Source of the DNA: Bacteroidaceae bacterium
GTDB taxonomy: Bacteria > Bacteroidota > Bacteroidia > Bacteroidales > Bacteroidaceae
Direction: 5' to 3'
NCBI GenBank assembly: GCA_024695315.1
Contig: JAILIJ010000075.1
Coordinates: 1 to 35,479, forward strand
DNA: 35,479 bases
Part shown: positions 15,730 through 20,472 of the stretch, piece by piece
Layout of the letters: every line of letters starts with the position of its first letter
Position numbering within the stretch: the first letter of the stretch is position 1
Notes under the pieces: generated by a model
What the model was told of the DNA's origin: nothing
The model's database searches: none
Seen by the model: only the letters and a program-made list of their open reading frames with translations
Translations under genes and position numbers: made by a program

Positions 15730-16494
15730 TTAGTCAGCAAGTTTAGCTTTAATGAACTCGCGGTTGAGACGAGCGATATTAGCGATAGTCTCGCACTTTG
15801 GACAAACAGCTTCACAAGCACGTGTGTTTGTACAGTTACCGAAACCAAGTTCGTCCATCTTAGCTACCATTGACTTAGCACGCTTAGCAGCCTCTACACG
15901 TCCCTGTGGAAGGAGAGCGAGCTGAGATACTTTAGATGAAACGAAGAGCATAGCAGAACCGTTCTTACAAGCGGCAACACAAGCACCACAACCGATACAG
16001 CTTGCGCAGTCCATAGCCTCGTCAGCATCTGGCTTAGGGATGAGGATTGCGTTTGCATCCTGTGGAGCACCTGTACGTACAGTAGTGTAGCCACCAGCCT
16101 GCATAATCTTATCGAAAGCTGTACGGTCAACCATACAGTCCTTGATTACTGGGAAACCAGCAGAACGCCATGGCTCTACAGTAATAACGTCACCATCATT
16201 GAACTTACGCATATAGAGCTGACAAGTTGTTGCTCCGCGTTCAGTCTTACCATGTGGAGTACCATTAATGTAGAGTGAACACATACCGCAAATACCCTCG
16301 CGGCAGTCATGATCGAAAACGAAAGGCTCCTTGCCTTCTTCGATAAGTTGCTCGTTAAGAATATCGAGCATTTCGAGGAATGAAGTATCACCTGGGATAT
16401 CCTTCATTACCTTCTCCTCAAAATGGCCAGCATCCTTTGGGCCATTCTGCTTCCAATATTTTACTGTGAATGATGTTAAAACCTTCTCTGCCAT
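15730..16494 (-). CDS. frdB: Fumarate reductase/succinate dehydrogenase iron-sulfur subunit
   Basis: The 254-residue subunit carries electrons between the cytochrome b subunit and the flavoprotein. The N-terminal ferredoxin-like domain has the [2Fe-2S] cysteines C64, C69, C72 and C91 (CREGICGMC, then TTCQLY). The C-terminal domain has the [10 protein letters not shown] cluster motif (C163, C166, C169, C172, with C176) and the second set at C221, C227, C231 and C234 ([14 protein letters not shown]) for the [4Fe-4S] and [3Fe-4S] centres. It starts 2 bases after frdA and is last in the operon. Codon use is strongly biased, as in the rest of the operon, indicating high expression. In fermenting Prevotella and Bacteroides the complex mainly reduces fumarate to succinate; sequence alone does not fix the direction. 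Confidence 0.95.
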
Positions 16495-16496
16495 AA

Positions 16497-18497
16497 TTAG
16501 TTCTTGTAGTTACGAGTTTGTACCTTAATTGCCTCATAGTTGAGTGGCTCCTTAATGAGTGTTGGAGGGGTAGCGTCGTTTCCTTCGTATCTCCAGCAGC
16601 CTACATAGAAGAAGTTCTCGTCGTCACGCTTAGCTTCACCTTCCTCAGTCTGGTGCTCCTCGCGGAAGTGTCCACCGCAAGACTCCTCACGAGAGAGGGC
16701 GTCGTAAGCGATGAGTGAACCCATAGTGATGAAGTCGTCGAGGTGGATTGCCTTGTCGAGCTCTACATTAAGACCATCACGTGAACCTGGGATGAAGAGA
16801 TCTGTGTCGAATGCCTTACGGAGTTCCTTGATCTTTTCGATACCTGTTTCAAGACCCTCCTTAGTACGACCCATTCCGATGTATTCCCAGCAGATGTGTC
16901 CGAGTTCCTTGTGGATAGAGTCAACTGAACGCTTACCCTTGATGTTCATAAGTTTCTGGATACGAGCTTCTGTTGCATCCTCAACCTCCTTGAACTCTGG
17001 AGCGTCAGTAGAGATACGTGGCCAGATAGACTGGTCAGCAAGATAATTCTGGATTGTGTATGGAAGTACGAAGTAACCATCTGCAAGACCCTGCATAAGA
17101 GCTGATGCACCAAGACGGTTAGCACCGTGGTCAGAGAAGTTACATTCACCGATTGCAAAGAGACCTGGGATAGCAGTCTGGAGTTCGTAGTCTACCCAGA
17201 TACCACCCATTGTGTAGTGGATAGCTGGGAAGATCATCATTGGGTTGTAGTAGTCTACACCATTGACAGTCTTACGCTTCTCACCTGGGTTTACGTCTGT
17301 GATTTCCTCATACATATCGAAGAGGTTACCATAACGCTGGAGAACAACATCGAGTCCGAGGCGCTGGATTGACTCAGAGAAGTCAAGGAATACTGCGAGA
17401 CCTGTATTGTTTACACCGAATCCCTTGTCGCAACGCTCCTTAGCAGCACGAGATGCTACGTCACGTGGTACGAGGTTACCGAATGCAGGGTAGCGGCGCT
17501 CCAAGTAGTAGTCACGATCCTCTTCTGGAATCTCAAATCCCTGCTTAGTACCTGCCTGAAGAGCCTTAGCATCCTCAAGTTTCTTTGGTACCCAGATACG
17601 TCCGTCGTTACGGAGTGACTCAGACATAAGAGTAAGCTTAGACTGCTTGTCACCGTGTACAGGGATACATGTTGGGTGAATCTGTACGTAACATGGGTTA
17701 GCGAAGTAAGCACCCTTACGGTAGCAAGACATTGCTGCTGTTACGTTACATCCCATAGCGTTTGTAGAGAGGAAGTAAGTGTTTCCGTAACCACCAGTAG
17801 CGATAACTACTGCGTTAGCTGAGAAACGCTCGAGTTTACCAGTTACGAGGTTCTTTGCGATGATACCGCGAGCACGACCGTTGATGATTACAACGTCGAG
17901 CATCTCATAACGTGTGTAAAGCTTTACCTTACCAGCATTTACCTGACAAGAGAGTGCAGAGTAAGCACCGAGAAGGAGCTGCTGACCTGTCTGTCCCTTA
18001 GCGTAGAAAGTACGTGAAACCTGAGCACCACCGAATGAACGGTTAGCGAGTGTACCACCATATTCACGAGCGAAAGGAACCCCCTGAGCAACACACTGGT
18101 CGATGATTGAGTTTGAAACCTCTGCGAGGCGGTAAACGTTTGCTTCACGAGCACGGTAGTCACCACCCTTTACTGTATCATAGAAAAGACGATATACAGA
18201 GTCACCGTCATTCTGATAATTCTTTGCTGCATTGATACCACCCTGTGCTGCGATAGAGTGAGCACGACGTGGAGAGTCTTGAATACAGAAGTTGAGGACA
18301 TTGAAGCCCATCTCGCCGAGAGATGCTGCTGCAGATGCTCCAGCAAGACCTGTACCAACAACGATAACGTCAAGTTTGAGCTTGTTCTTTGGGTTTACCA
18401 AACGTTGGTGTGCCTTATAGTTAGACCACTTCTCTGCTACAGGTCCCTCAGGAATCTTAGAATCTATTTTGACTGTATTGTCTATATTGATTGCCAT
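16497..18497 (-). CDS. frdA: Fumarate reductase/succinate dehydrogenase flavoprotein subunit
   Basis: The 666-residue catalytic subunit has the FAD dinucleotide-binding motif [10 protein letters not shown] (48-57), the covalent flavin attachment sequence [14 protein letters not shown] with H80, substrate-site motifs such as IHPTCIPV and [15 protein letters not shown], and the FAD-ribose [23 protein letters not shown] region. The C-terminal part has the long insert-rich tail typical of the Bacteroidota/Epsilonproteobacteria-type enzyme. It reduces fumarate to succinate in anaerobic respiration, facing the cytoplasm at the inner membrane. It starts 22 bases after frdC and ends 2 bases before frdB. 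The strong codon preference gives several long spurious frames on both strands across this gene. Confidence 0.96.
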
Positions 18498-18519: not shown

Positions 18520-19242
18520 TTACATAATGAATGGTAGAACGTTGCCGTCTAACTTACCCAGGCTATCTGGACAGAGGCAGAAAAGAATTACCACGAGAGC
18601 GAAAGCACCCATAATTAGTGTAGCCCAAATCTGACCGATGCACTTCCAGCGGTTGAACCAGATGTGACCAGATACGCCAAGTGTCTGCATTGAAGACCAC
18701 ATACCGTGAGCAAGGTGGAACCAGATTGCTACAATCCAAATGAGGTAGAGAACTGTGTAGATGTAAGAAGCAGTTGTGCCGCTACCGAAAGTGAAAGCAA
18801 TCCATCCAAAGCCGTCTGTTGGAGCGATAGCCTTGTGAGCACCGATAAGCTCAGCAAGCATCATGTTCTCCCAGAAATGGTGTAGGTGTAGGATAAGTCC
18901 CAAGCAGATGATGATTCCGAGAGCAAACATGTTTTGGCTTGCCCACTCAACCTTCTCTGGTTTTGAAGTGATAGCATACTTGTTGTTACCACGAGCCTTA
19001 GCATTCTGATGTGTAAGAATGAGTGCAAACACAATGTGAATTGCCATAAGTGCTGCAAGACCAGCAGTTGCAACAAGTGCATACCAGTTTGAACCAAGGA
19101 GTTTACAAATCTGGTTGTACGCCTCTGCGCTGAAAATCGCTACAACATTCATGCATGCATGAAATGTAAGGAAGAGAATGAGTGCCAGACCAGTTACCGA
19201 CATCACAACTTTCCTTCCGATTGAAGAGTTACATAACCACAT
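18520..19242 (-). CDS. frdC: Fumarate reductase/succinate dehydrogenase cytochrome b subunit
   Basis: The 240-residue membrane anchor has five predicted helices at about 12-36, 53-77, 103-124, 160-182 and 203-225, the layout of single-subunit (type B) di-heme cytochrome b558. Candidate heme ligands are H28 (TFHAC), H69 (AIHIV), one of H119/H121/H122 and H176 or H179 (WFHLAHGMW). The subunit passes electrons from menaquinol to FrdB. It is first in the operon, with a predicted leader of about 90 bases carrying overlapping hairpins (19306-19329) behind a consensus promoter (19339-19369). Confidence 0.93.
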   Translation of the reverse strand: MWLCNSSIGRKVVMSVTGLALILFLTFHACMNVVAIFSAEAYNQICKLLGSNWYALVATAGLAALMAIHIVFALILTHQNAKARGNNKYAITSKPEKVEWASQNMFALGIIICLGLILHLHHFWENMMLAELIGAHKAIAPTDGFGWIAFTFGSGTTASYIYTVLYLIWIVAIWFHLAHGMWSSMQTLGVSGHIWFNRWKCIGQIWATLIMGAFALVVILFCLCPDSLGKLDGNVLPFIM

Positions 19243-19305
19243 AAAATGATTGAATTTAAAGTTATAAAATTATTTTTGAATTTTAATATTTGTTATCCTT
19301 AATGT

Positions 19306-19329
19306 AGGGTATGGAGTATACCCTCCATA
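19306..19329 (-). promoter_or_regulatory. Two overlapping, mutually exclusive hairpins in the frd leader
   Basis: Two perfect 7-bp inverted repeats share bases: AGGGTAT/ATACCCT (19306-19312 with 19318-19324, 5-base loop) and TATGGAG/CTCCATA (19310-19316 with 19323-19329, 6-base loop). Only one can form at a time. They lie just past the -7 element, at the expected 5' end of the transcript. They could act as a 5' stabilising hairpin, a regulatory switch or an operator on DNA. Function is inferred only. Confidence 0.55.
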
Positions 19330-19338
19330 GGAATTTTG

Positions 19339-19369
19339 CAAATGTAGTTTTTTTTGTTCTAATATCAAA
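19339..19369 (-). promoter_or_regulatory. Consensus Bacteroidota promoter for frdCAB
   Basis: The minus strand has TTTG (19366-19369), exactly 19 bases, then TACATTTG (19339-19346), matching the -33 TTTG and -7 TANNTTTG consensus. The start site is expected near 19332, about 90 bases upstream of frdC. The -33 box touches the U-tract of the terminator at 19386-19417. Confidence 0.85.
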
Positions 19370-19385
19370 ACAAAATATAATAAAA

Positions 19386-19417
19386 TATGCTGAGGAAAGT
19401 GTTATTTCCTCAGCATA
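19386..19417 (-). terminator. Terminator overlapping the end of the 64-residue gene
   Basis: A 13-bp perfect stem (TATGCTGAGGAAA, 19386-19398; complement at 19405-19417) with a 6-base loop is followed on the minus strand by a T-rich run. The upstream arm is coding (last codons of the 64-residue protein) and the stop codon lies in the loop. Confidence 0.85.
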
Positions 19418-19596
19418 CTTGTAAACTTATCTGTCAATTGTTTTCTCTGCTCGTCAGTTATTGTAGAAAAATCCTCGTCCAAAATTGTTGCGAAAGCTTG
19501 TTCTGCCTTTGCTCTCATCTGTGCCTTTCCGGCTCTAAGTCCTGATGACAATTCTGTTTTTGGCAATAACTGTCTATTGAAATTTCCGTCTGACAT
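19402..19596 (-). CDS. Small conserved-looking protein of unknown function (64 aa)
   Basis: The 64-residue product is soluble, with no signal peptide or membrane segment. It begins MSDGNFNRQLLPKTELSSGLRAGKAQ and is then mostly helical (AQMRAKAEQAFATILDEDF, then TDEQRKQLTDKFTSMLRK). I do not recognise the family. Support for a real gene: amphipathic helical composition, codon use like its neighbours, position 54 bases after the outer-membrane protein gene on the same strand, and a strong terminator whose upstream arm is formed by its last codons. No promoter of its own was found, so it may be co-transcribed with the barrel protein. Without a database search the function stays open. Confidence 0.7.
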   Translation of the reverse strand: MSDGNFNRQLLPKTELSSGLRAGKAQMRAKAEQAFATILDEDFSTITDEQRKQLTDKFTSMLRK

Positions 19597-19650: not shown

Positions 19651-20472
19651 TTAGAACATGTTGAATCCTATACGGAAATTGATTACAGGATAAATCTGTA
19701 TATTAGTGAACGTTTTTAGGAGTCCACCATTGCTACCACTTGTATCCTGCTTTGGAAGTTCGTAAGAATATTCTGTATTGTTGCCATCTTCATCATAGAT
19801 GGTTGGTGTAGTGTACACCTTAGGCTGTCCCCAAAACATTACTCCAGCTTCAACCATCCAGTCGAAACTCTTGTCAGATACTGCTTTTCCCCATCCGAGA
19901 CCTACGTATGGCTTGAGTTTGCTTGTCTCAATCCATCCGTCAATTTTTCCGTCAACATTTGGAAGAAGAACATAGTTTCCGAGCTGAGGACCCCAAAGTT
20001 CATCTGCTCTACTGCTATATGGGTTGCTATTTGCACTTACATTATGGAGCCATACTTGTTTGAGCATGTCTTCATTACCAACATTTTCCAAATCGAAAGT
20101 CTTACCTCCATTGATATAAGCACCTAAAGTCAGGTGAAGAGGTAACTCCTGAGAGAAATAGAAATCAAAGAGGATTTTAGCATTAAAGAAGTTTGCTGTT
20201 CCTTTGATATCTGTCTCGTTGTTATGAAGAGGGTCAACGCTTTCTTTATTGTATTTAAGAGTAGTTGTCAAAGATACAGGAGGCATGTAAGTAGCTCCGG
20301 CTCTTACTTGTACATAATTACCTATTGGCATGCCAAGTTCAAGACCTACACCAGGTGTACCTGCTGTTATACCTAAAGCCATGTGATTAAACATGTTTGT
20401 GTCATCCTCCTGAGCCTGAACAGCTGTTGTTGAAAGGAAGAGCGCAGCAATTAACGTAGATAATACTCTCAT
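19651..20472 (-). CDS. Outer-membrane beta-barrel protein
   Basis: The 273-residue protein has a signal peptide (MRVLSTLIAALFLSTTAVQA, cleavage before Q21). The mature part shows alternating beta strands with aromatic girdles (GNYVQVRAGATYMP, AKILFDFYFSQELPLHLTLGAYING, LKPYVGLGWGKA, FDWMVEAGVMFWG) and ends in a strand with terminal phenylalanine (YPVINFRIGFNMF), the usual outer-membrane assembly signal. It fits the porin-like or outer-membrane protein beta-barrel families common in Bacteroidota; ligand or pore function is unknown. Its -7 element is at 20552-20559, giving a leader of roughly 70 bases. The 64-residue gene follows 54 bases later. Confidence 0.82.
   Translation of the reverse strand: MRVLSTLIAALFLSTTAVQAQEDDTNMFNHMALGITAGTPGVGLELGMPIGNYVQVRAGATYMPPVSLTTTLKYNKESVDPLHNNETDIKGTANFFNAKILFDFYFSQELPLHLTLGAYINGGKTFDLENVGNEDMLKQVWLHNVSANSNPYSSRADELWGPQLGNYVLLPNVDGKIDGWIETSKLKPYVGLGWGKAVSDKSFDWMVEAGVMFWGQPKVYTTPTIYDEDGNNTEYSYELPKQDTSGSNGGLLKTFTNIQIYPVINFRIGFNMF

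Follow-up and report, generated by a model that had tools for sequence, protein, structure and literature searches.

Two perfect 7-bp inverted repeats overlap at the predicted 5' end of the frdCAB mRNA in Bacteroidaceae bacterium GCA_024695315.1. What, if anything, do they do? An earlier note on this DNA had offered three possible roles, namely a stabiliser of the mRNA 5' end, a conformational switch, or overlapping operator sites for a dimeric regulator. The window that we analyzed is the whole of contig JAILIJ010000075.1, 35,479 nt in length (G000:C194), from a draft Bacteroidales assembly (G000) of 2.84 Mb in 376 contigs that is 81% complete.

The frdCAB operon and its promoter

According to family profile matches, the minus-strand genes from 19242 to 15730 form a b558-type succinate dehydrogenase/fumarate reductase operon in the order frdCAB (Table 1). 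The closest FrdC elsewhere in the genus, among 44 other genomes, is only 77% identical, so our comparisons are made at genus level, without close relatives.

Table 1. Features of the frd leader and operon in the window, with the basis for each.
Feature	Position	Strand	Basis or details
-33 promoter element TTTG	19366..19369	-	Sequence; strict-pattern genome count
-7 promoter element TACATTTG, then C	19339..19346	-	Strict-pattern count; box kept in relatives
Extended 14-bp stem-loop, 37 nt, tip = hairpin B	19296..19332	-	Minimum free energy fold, -13.4 kcal/mol
Hairpin A, TATGGAG-N6-CTCCATA	19310..19329	-	Arms 19329-19323 with 19316-19310, loop 6; -8.9 kcal/mol alone
Hairpin B, AGGGTAT-N5-ATACCCT	19306..19324	-	Arms 19324-19318 with 19312-19306, loop 5; -7.4 kcal/mol alone
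frdC, cytochrome b558 subunit, first gene of the operon	18520..19242	-	TIGR02046, 188 bits
frdA, flavoprotein subunit	16497..18497	-	NF005749, 1129 bits
frdB, iron-sulfur subunit	15730..16494	-	NF005746, 395 bits

The frd promoter has the layout TTTG-N19-TACATTTG (19369 to 19339, minus strand) and satisfies the sigma-ABfr consensus of Bacteroidetes, with TTTG around -33 and TAnnTTTG at -7 (PMC7366714). The strict pattern TTTG-N19-TAnnTTTGC had 82 occurrences in this genome and its reversed control had 5, so any one match is a promoter with very high probability. The TAnnTTTG -7 box (TATTTTTGCA) is also kept in nearly all of the frdC leaders fetched from relatives. Because the -7 element of B. 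theta has its centre at -7 (PMC7366714), we infer that the frd mRNA starts at about 19335. The consensus promoter and the location at the mRNA 5' end, both claimed in the earlier note, are thus borne out, the start itself being a prediction.

Upstream of frdC, a small ORF of 64 aa (MSDGNFNRQLLPKTELSSGLRAGKAQMRAKAEQAF..., 19402-19596, minus strand) has its stop codon within the stem of an intrinsic terminator (16 pairs; 19383-19420). The same layout of small ORF and terminator is found in the genus members L002, L003, L004, L009, L011, L019, L021 and L024, and the ORF had no Pfam or NCBIfam match. Farther upstream lies a predicted outer-membrane-type protein of 273 aa (19651-20472, minus strand), for which no NCBIfam match was found.

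Folding of the leader RNA

Read on the minus strand, positions 19332 to 19296 are UCCUAUGGAGGGUAUACUCCAUACCCUACAUUAAGGA. Both 7-bp stems described earlier are present in this sequence and perfect. Since hairpins A and B have arm bases in common, the RNA can form only one of them, and their mutual exclusion therefore holds as well. Hairpin B extends past a G-A mismatch to AUG/CAU and then past a 2-nt bulge to UCCU/AGGA, giving 14 bp in total, and this extended hairpin is the computed minimum free energy structure of the entire leader (leader z -2.34). The original coordinates, 19306-19329, cover only the core of the predicted RNA structure, which spans 19296-19332. The extended stem starts at 19332, at about +4, which is about 3 nt from the predicted (unmapped) 5' end.

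In a growing-transcript calculation, hairpin A was the sole form at 26 nt (P about 1), A and B were about equal near 32-33 nt, and A fell below 0.01 at 41 nt, so the calculated crossover falls within 29-41 nt. At 41 nt and beyond, with 19296 transcribed, the share of B at equilibrium was about 99%. By these calculations A and B are unequal, and the leader at equilibrium is a single hairpin that a transient form precedes, not a two-state device; the extended B form is likely to be its structure. About 54 nt separate the end of the extended hairpin from the frdC ATG, with which neither form is in contact. No terminator-like site was detected in the frd leader, the only one in the area (19420-19383) being upstream of the promoter and belonging to the upstream gene. 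With neither start-codon contact nor a terminator, a switch would have no visible output. An Rfam search of the leader matched no family; the one hit, to a snoRNA at E 0.49, was due to chance and far under the gathering score.

A count over 268 kb of this genome gave 5 separate sites at which two perfect 7-bp stems (loops 3-8) overlap and exclude each other, about 1 per 54 kb, so that one such pair in a 35-kb window is unsurprising. Its placement is less common. Among the 81 leaders of the strict-promoter control set (81 of the 82 sites, C113 being left out, with the frd segment cut some 2 nt earlier than the rest), frd alone has an exclusive stem pair within the first ~47 nt, and it ranks sixth by folding z-score and fourth by energy. 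The frd hairpin pair is thus unusual for its location, not extraordinary. When the promoter was defined more loosely, 49 leaders of this genome qualified, 14% of them with a z below -2 (mean z -0.73), and the 96 frd leaders had almost the same values (12.5% below -2, mean z -0.60). Because the two sets are about equal, the frd leaders taken together do not exceed the other leaders of this genome in structure and give no sign of selection for it.

Conservation and possible roles

The 24-mer core has no second copy in the genome at <=3 mismatches, and the whole leader has no other strong match there; a repeat or mobile palindrome is rejected on these grounds. At the same threshold the 24-mer occurred in the window only and in none of the other 44 genus genomes; the 63-nt leader core, sought in all 45, had no convincing match beyond the window. 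The earlier note had tied its proposal to conservation of the stems in relatives. At genus level, neither stem A nor stem B was found in the 29 other frd leaders, nor was either found in about 70 wider ones, and we reject a conserved frd leader structure.

In the frd leaders of the genus the promoter is kept, and the sequence just downstream differs between species. Most of them are without a stable 5' hairpin (L002, L006-L009, L021 and others), so such a hairpin is not required for frd expression, and some carry unrelated hairpins (L024, L011). L012 (G027) and G029:C13:382-447, from two species, have a private, single-copy frdC-leader element of 72 nt, 96% identical, that is in no other genus genome. 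Taken together, the kept promoter, the leader turnover, the unrelated hairpins and the private element fit a hairpin that is tolerated or mildly useful and whose sequence is free. More generally, the group keeps its frd promoters, and the initial 30-100 nt of leader change fast, different lineages carrying unrelated hairpins.

Our preferred reading, to which we give about an even chance, is that the element is a lineage-specific 5'-terminal stem-loop of the frdCAB leader and that, if it is functional, its likeliest effect would be slower 5'-end-dependent decay. After about 40 nt have been transcribed, the leader RNA would fold into a single 37-nt hairpin of 14 bp with B at its tip, A being at most short-lived and then replaced by B. 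Only about 3 unpaired nt would be left at the 5' end, which could slow 5'-end-dependent decay, a generic effect of a hairpin near the 5' end, and the remaining leader, A+U-rich and weakly structured, would stay open to ribosomes. The minimum free energy fold, the position of the stem at about +4 and the rank of fourth among 81 by energy are in line with such a stem-loop.

Bacterial mRNAs, those of E. coli among them, are known to be stabilised by stem-loops at the 5' end (reviews: PMC3997798, PMC7509114). As in the E. coli ompA and papA leader stabilisers covered there, the frd stem-loop is a few nt from the (here predicted) 5' end and far upstream of the start codon, and the rest of the leader is A+U-rich and open. 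Unlike them, it belongs to a Bacteroidales species and is not conserved in relatives. The decay rules that we applied come from E. coli and other non-Bacteroidetes species, and it is possible that they carry over to the frd leader. The suggestion of a 5' stabiliser may hold, because the longer stem-loop begins some 3 nt past the predicted start. If the hairpin does protect the frd mRNA, it would be a Bacteroidales example of the control of mRNA life from the 5' end, in a central anaerobic respiratory operon.

The stem-loop may also do nothing, and the choice between the stabilising function and neutrality is close to a coin toss. A neutral quasi-palindrome that arose by mutation (e.g., template switching) in a change-tolerant leader is a serious possibility, though we would put it somewhat under even. 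It would account for stems that are not conserved in the genus, for exclusive overlapping pairs at their background density in this genome, and for the finding that ~14% of the leaders behind other promoters fold equally well (z below -2). It is less at ease with the rarity of a perfect exclusive pair close to the start, seen in just 1 of 81 leaders, and with the energy rank of the frd leader.

It is improbable that one or more DNA operators of a dimeric repressor overlap the initially transcribed region. On DNA, hairpin A corresponds to a perfect dyad of 20 bp (7-N6-7) that spans roughly +7 to +26, where a repressor could plausibly bind, but this dyad is in no other frd promoter of the genus, and the 24-mer is single-copy. 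A-like dyads numbered 34 overall, against 16.7 in permuted controls, yet almost all were inside coding sequence; between genes there were 4 in 373 kb against 1.9 permuted, a count that 20 of 150 permutations reached and that is not significant. B-like dyads were not enriched. In a regulon test the dyad did not recur ahead of other genes, nor did orthologous promoters have it. A regulon-wide operator is thus unsupported, the near-copies being not enriched between genes, and the overlapping operators of the earlier note find no backing; an operator private to the frd promoter is still conceivable.

A metastable co-transcriptional switch, in which A forms first, delays RNA polymerase or a binding protein, or steers it, and then gives way to B, so that frd output is set by transcription speed or a ligand, seems to us very doubtful. 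The calculated A-to-B crossover at 29-41 nt in the growing transcript would suit it, and functional metastable structures have been reported from within an H. pylori mRNA that encodes a toxin (PMC6733600). There, too, in a type I toxin mRNA, a local hairpin comes first and longer pairing follows; in the frd case this sequence of events is calculated. The metastable structures of the H. pylori mRNA are reported to have a regulatory consequence, whereas the frd leader has no visible output and no conservation. Mutually exclusive leader pairings are also common to transcription attenuators and riboswitches, but unlike these the frd leader is without a terminator, a sequestered start codon or an Rfam aptamer match, and with regard to covarying conserved structure, no equivalent stem was found in the frd leaders of the genus. 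Together with the ~99:1 preference of the full leader for B, this speaks against the conformational switch of the earlier note. Least probable of all is a role for A itself, complete at ~26 nt, in acting on the early elongation complex before being overwritten by B, so that frd expression would respond to the speed of transcription or to a protein that binds the RNA.

Short dyads in wider frdC leaders

A family-wide dyad, CCTNANNTNAGG, was considered and rejected, as its enrichment in the wider leaders came mostly from one related clade and its pair counts gave no covariation beyond that of shuffles. The window carries CCTACATTAAGG at 19308-19297, whose core is enriched in the wider frd leaders, and the predicted fold pairs those bases otherwise.

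Outside the genus, Prevotella/Alloprevotella-like frdC leaders have in common a short dyad like CTCCTCATTTATGAGGAG, located ~12-20 nt past the -7 box (L054, L055, L094, L095, L099, L106, L113, L115 and L118). For this dyad, pair counts fail to discriminate between a stem in the RNA and a site on the DNA. At the same place, a clade of frdC leaders has TAC[CT]TAAATTAAGGTA in common (L062, L069, L071, L072, L074-L076, L079, L087, L089, L090, L100, L112 and L114), with a double change in 1 of its 8 predicted pairs.
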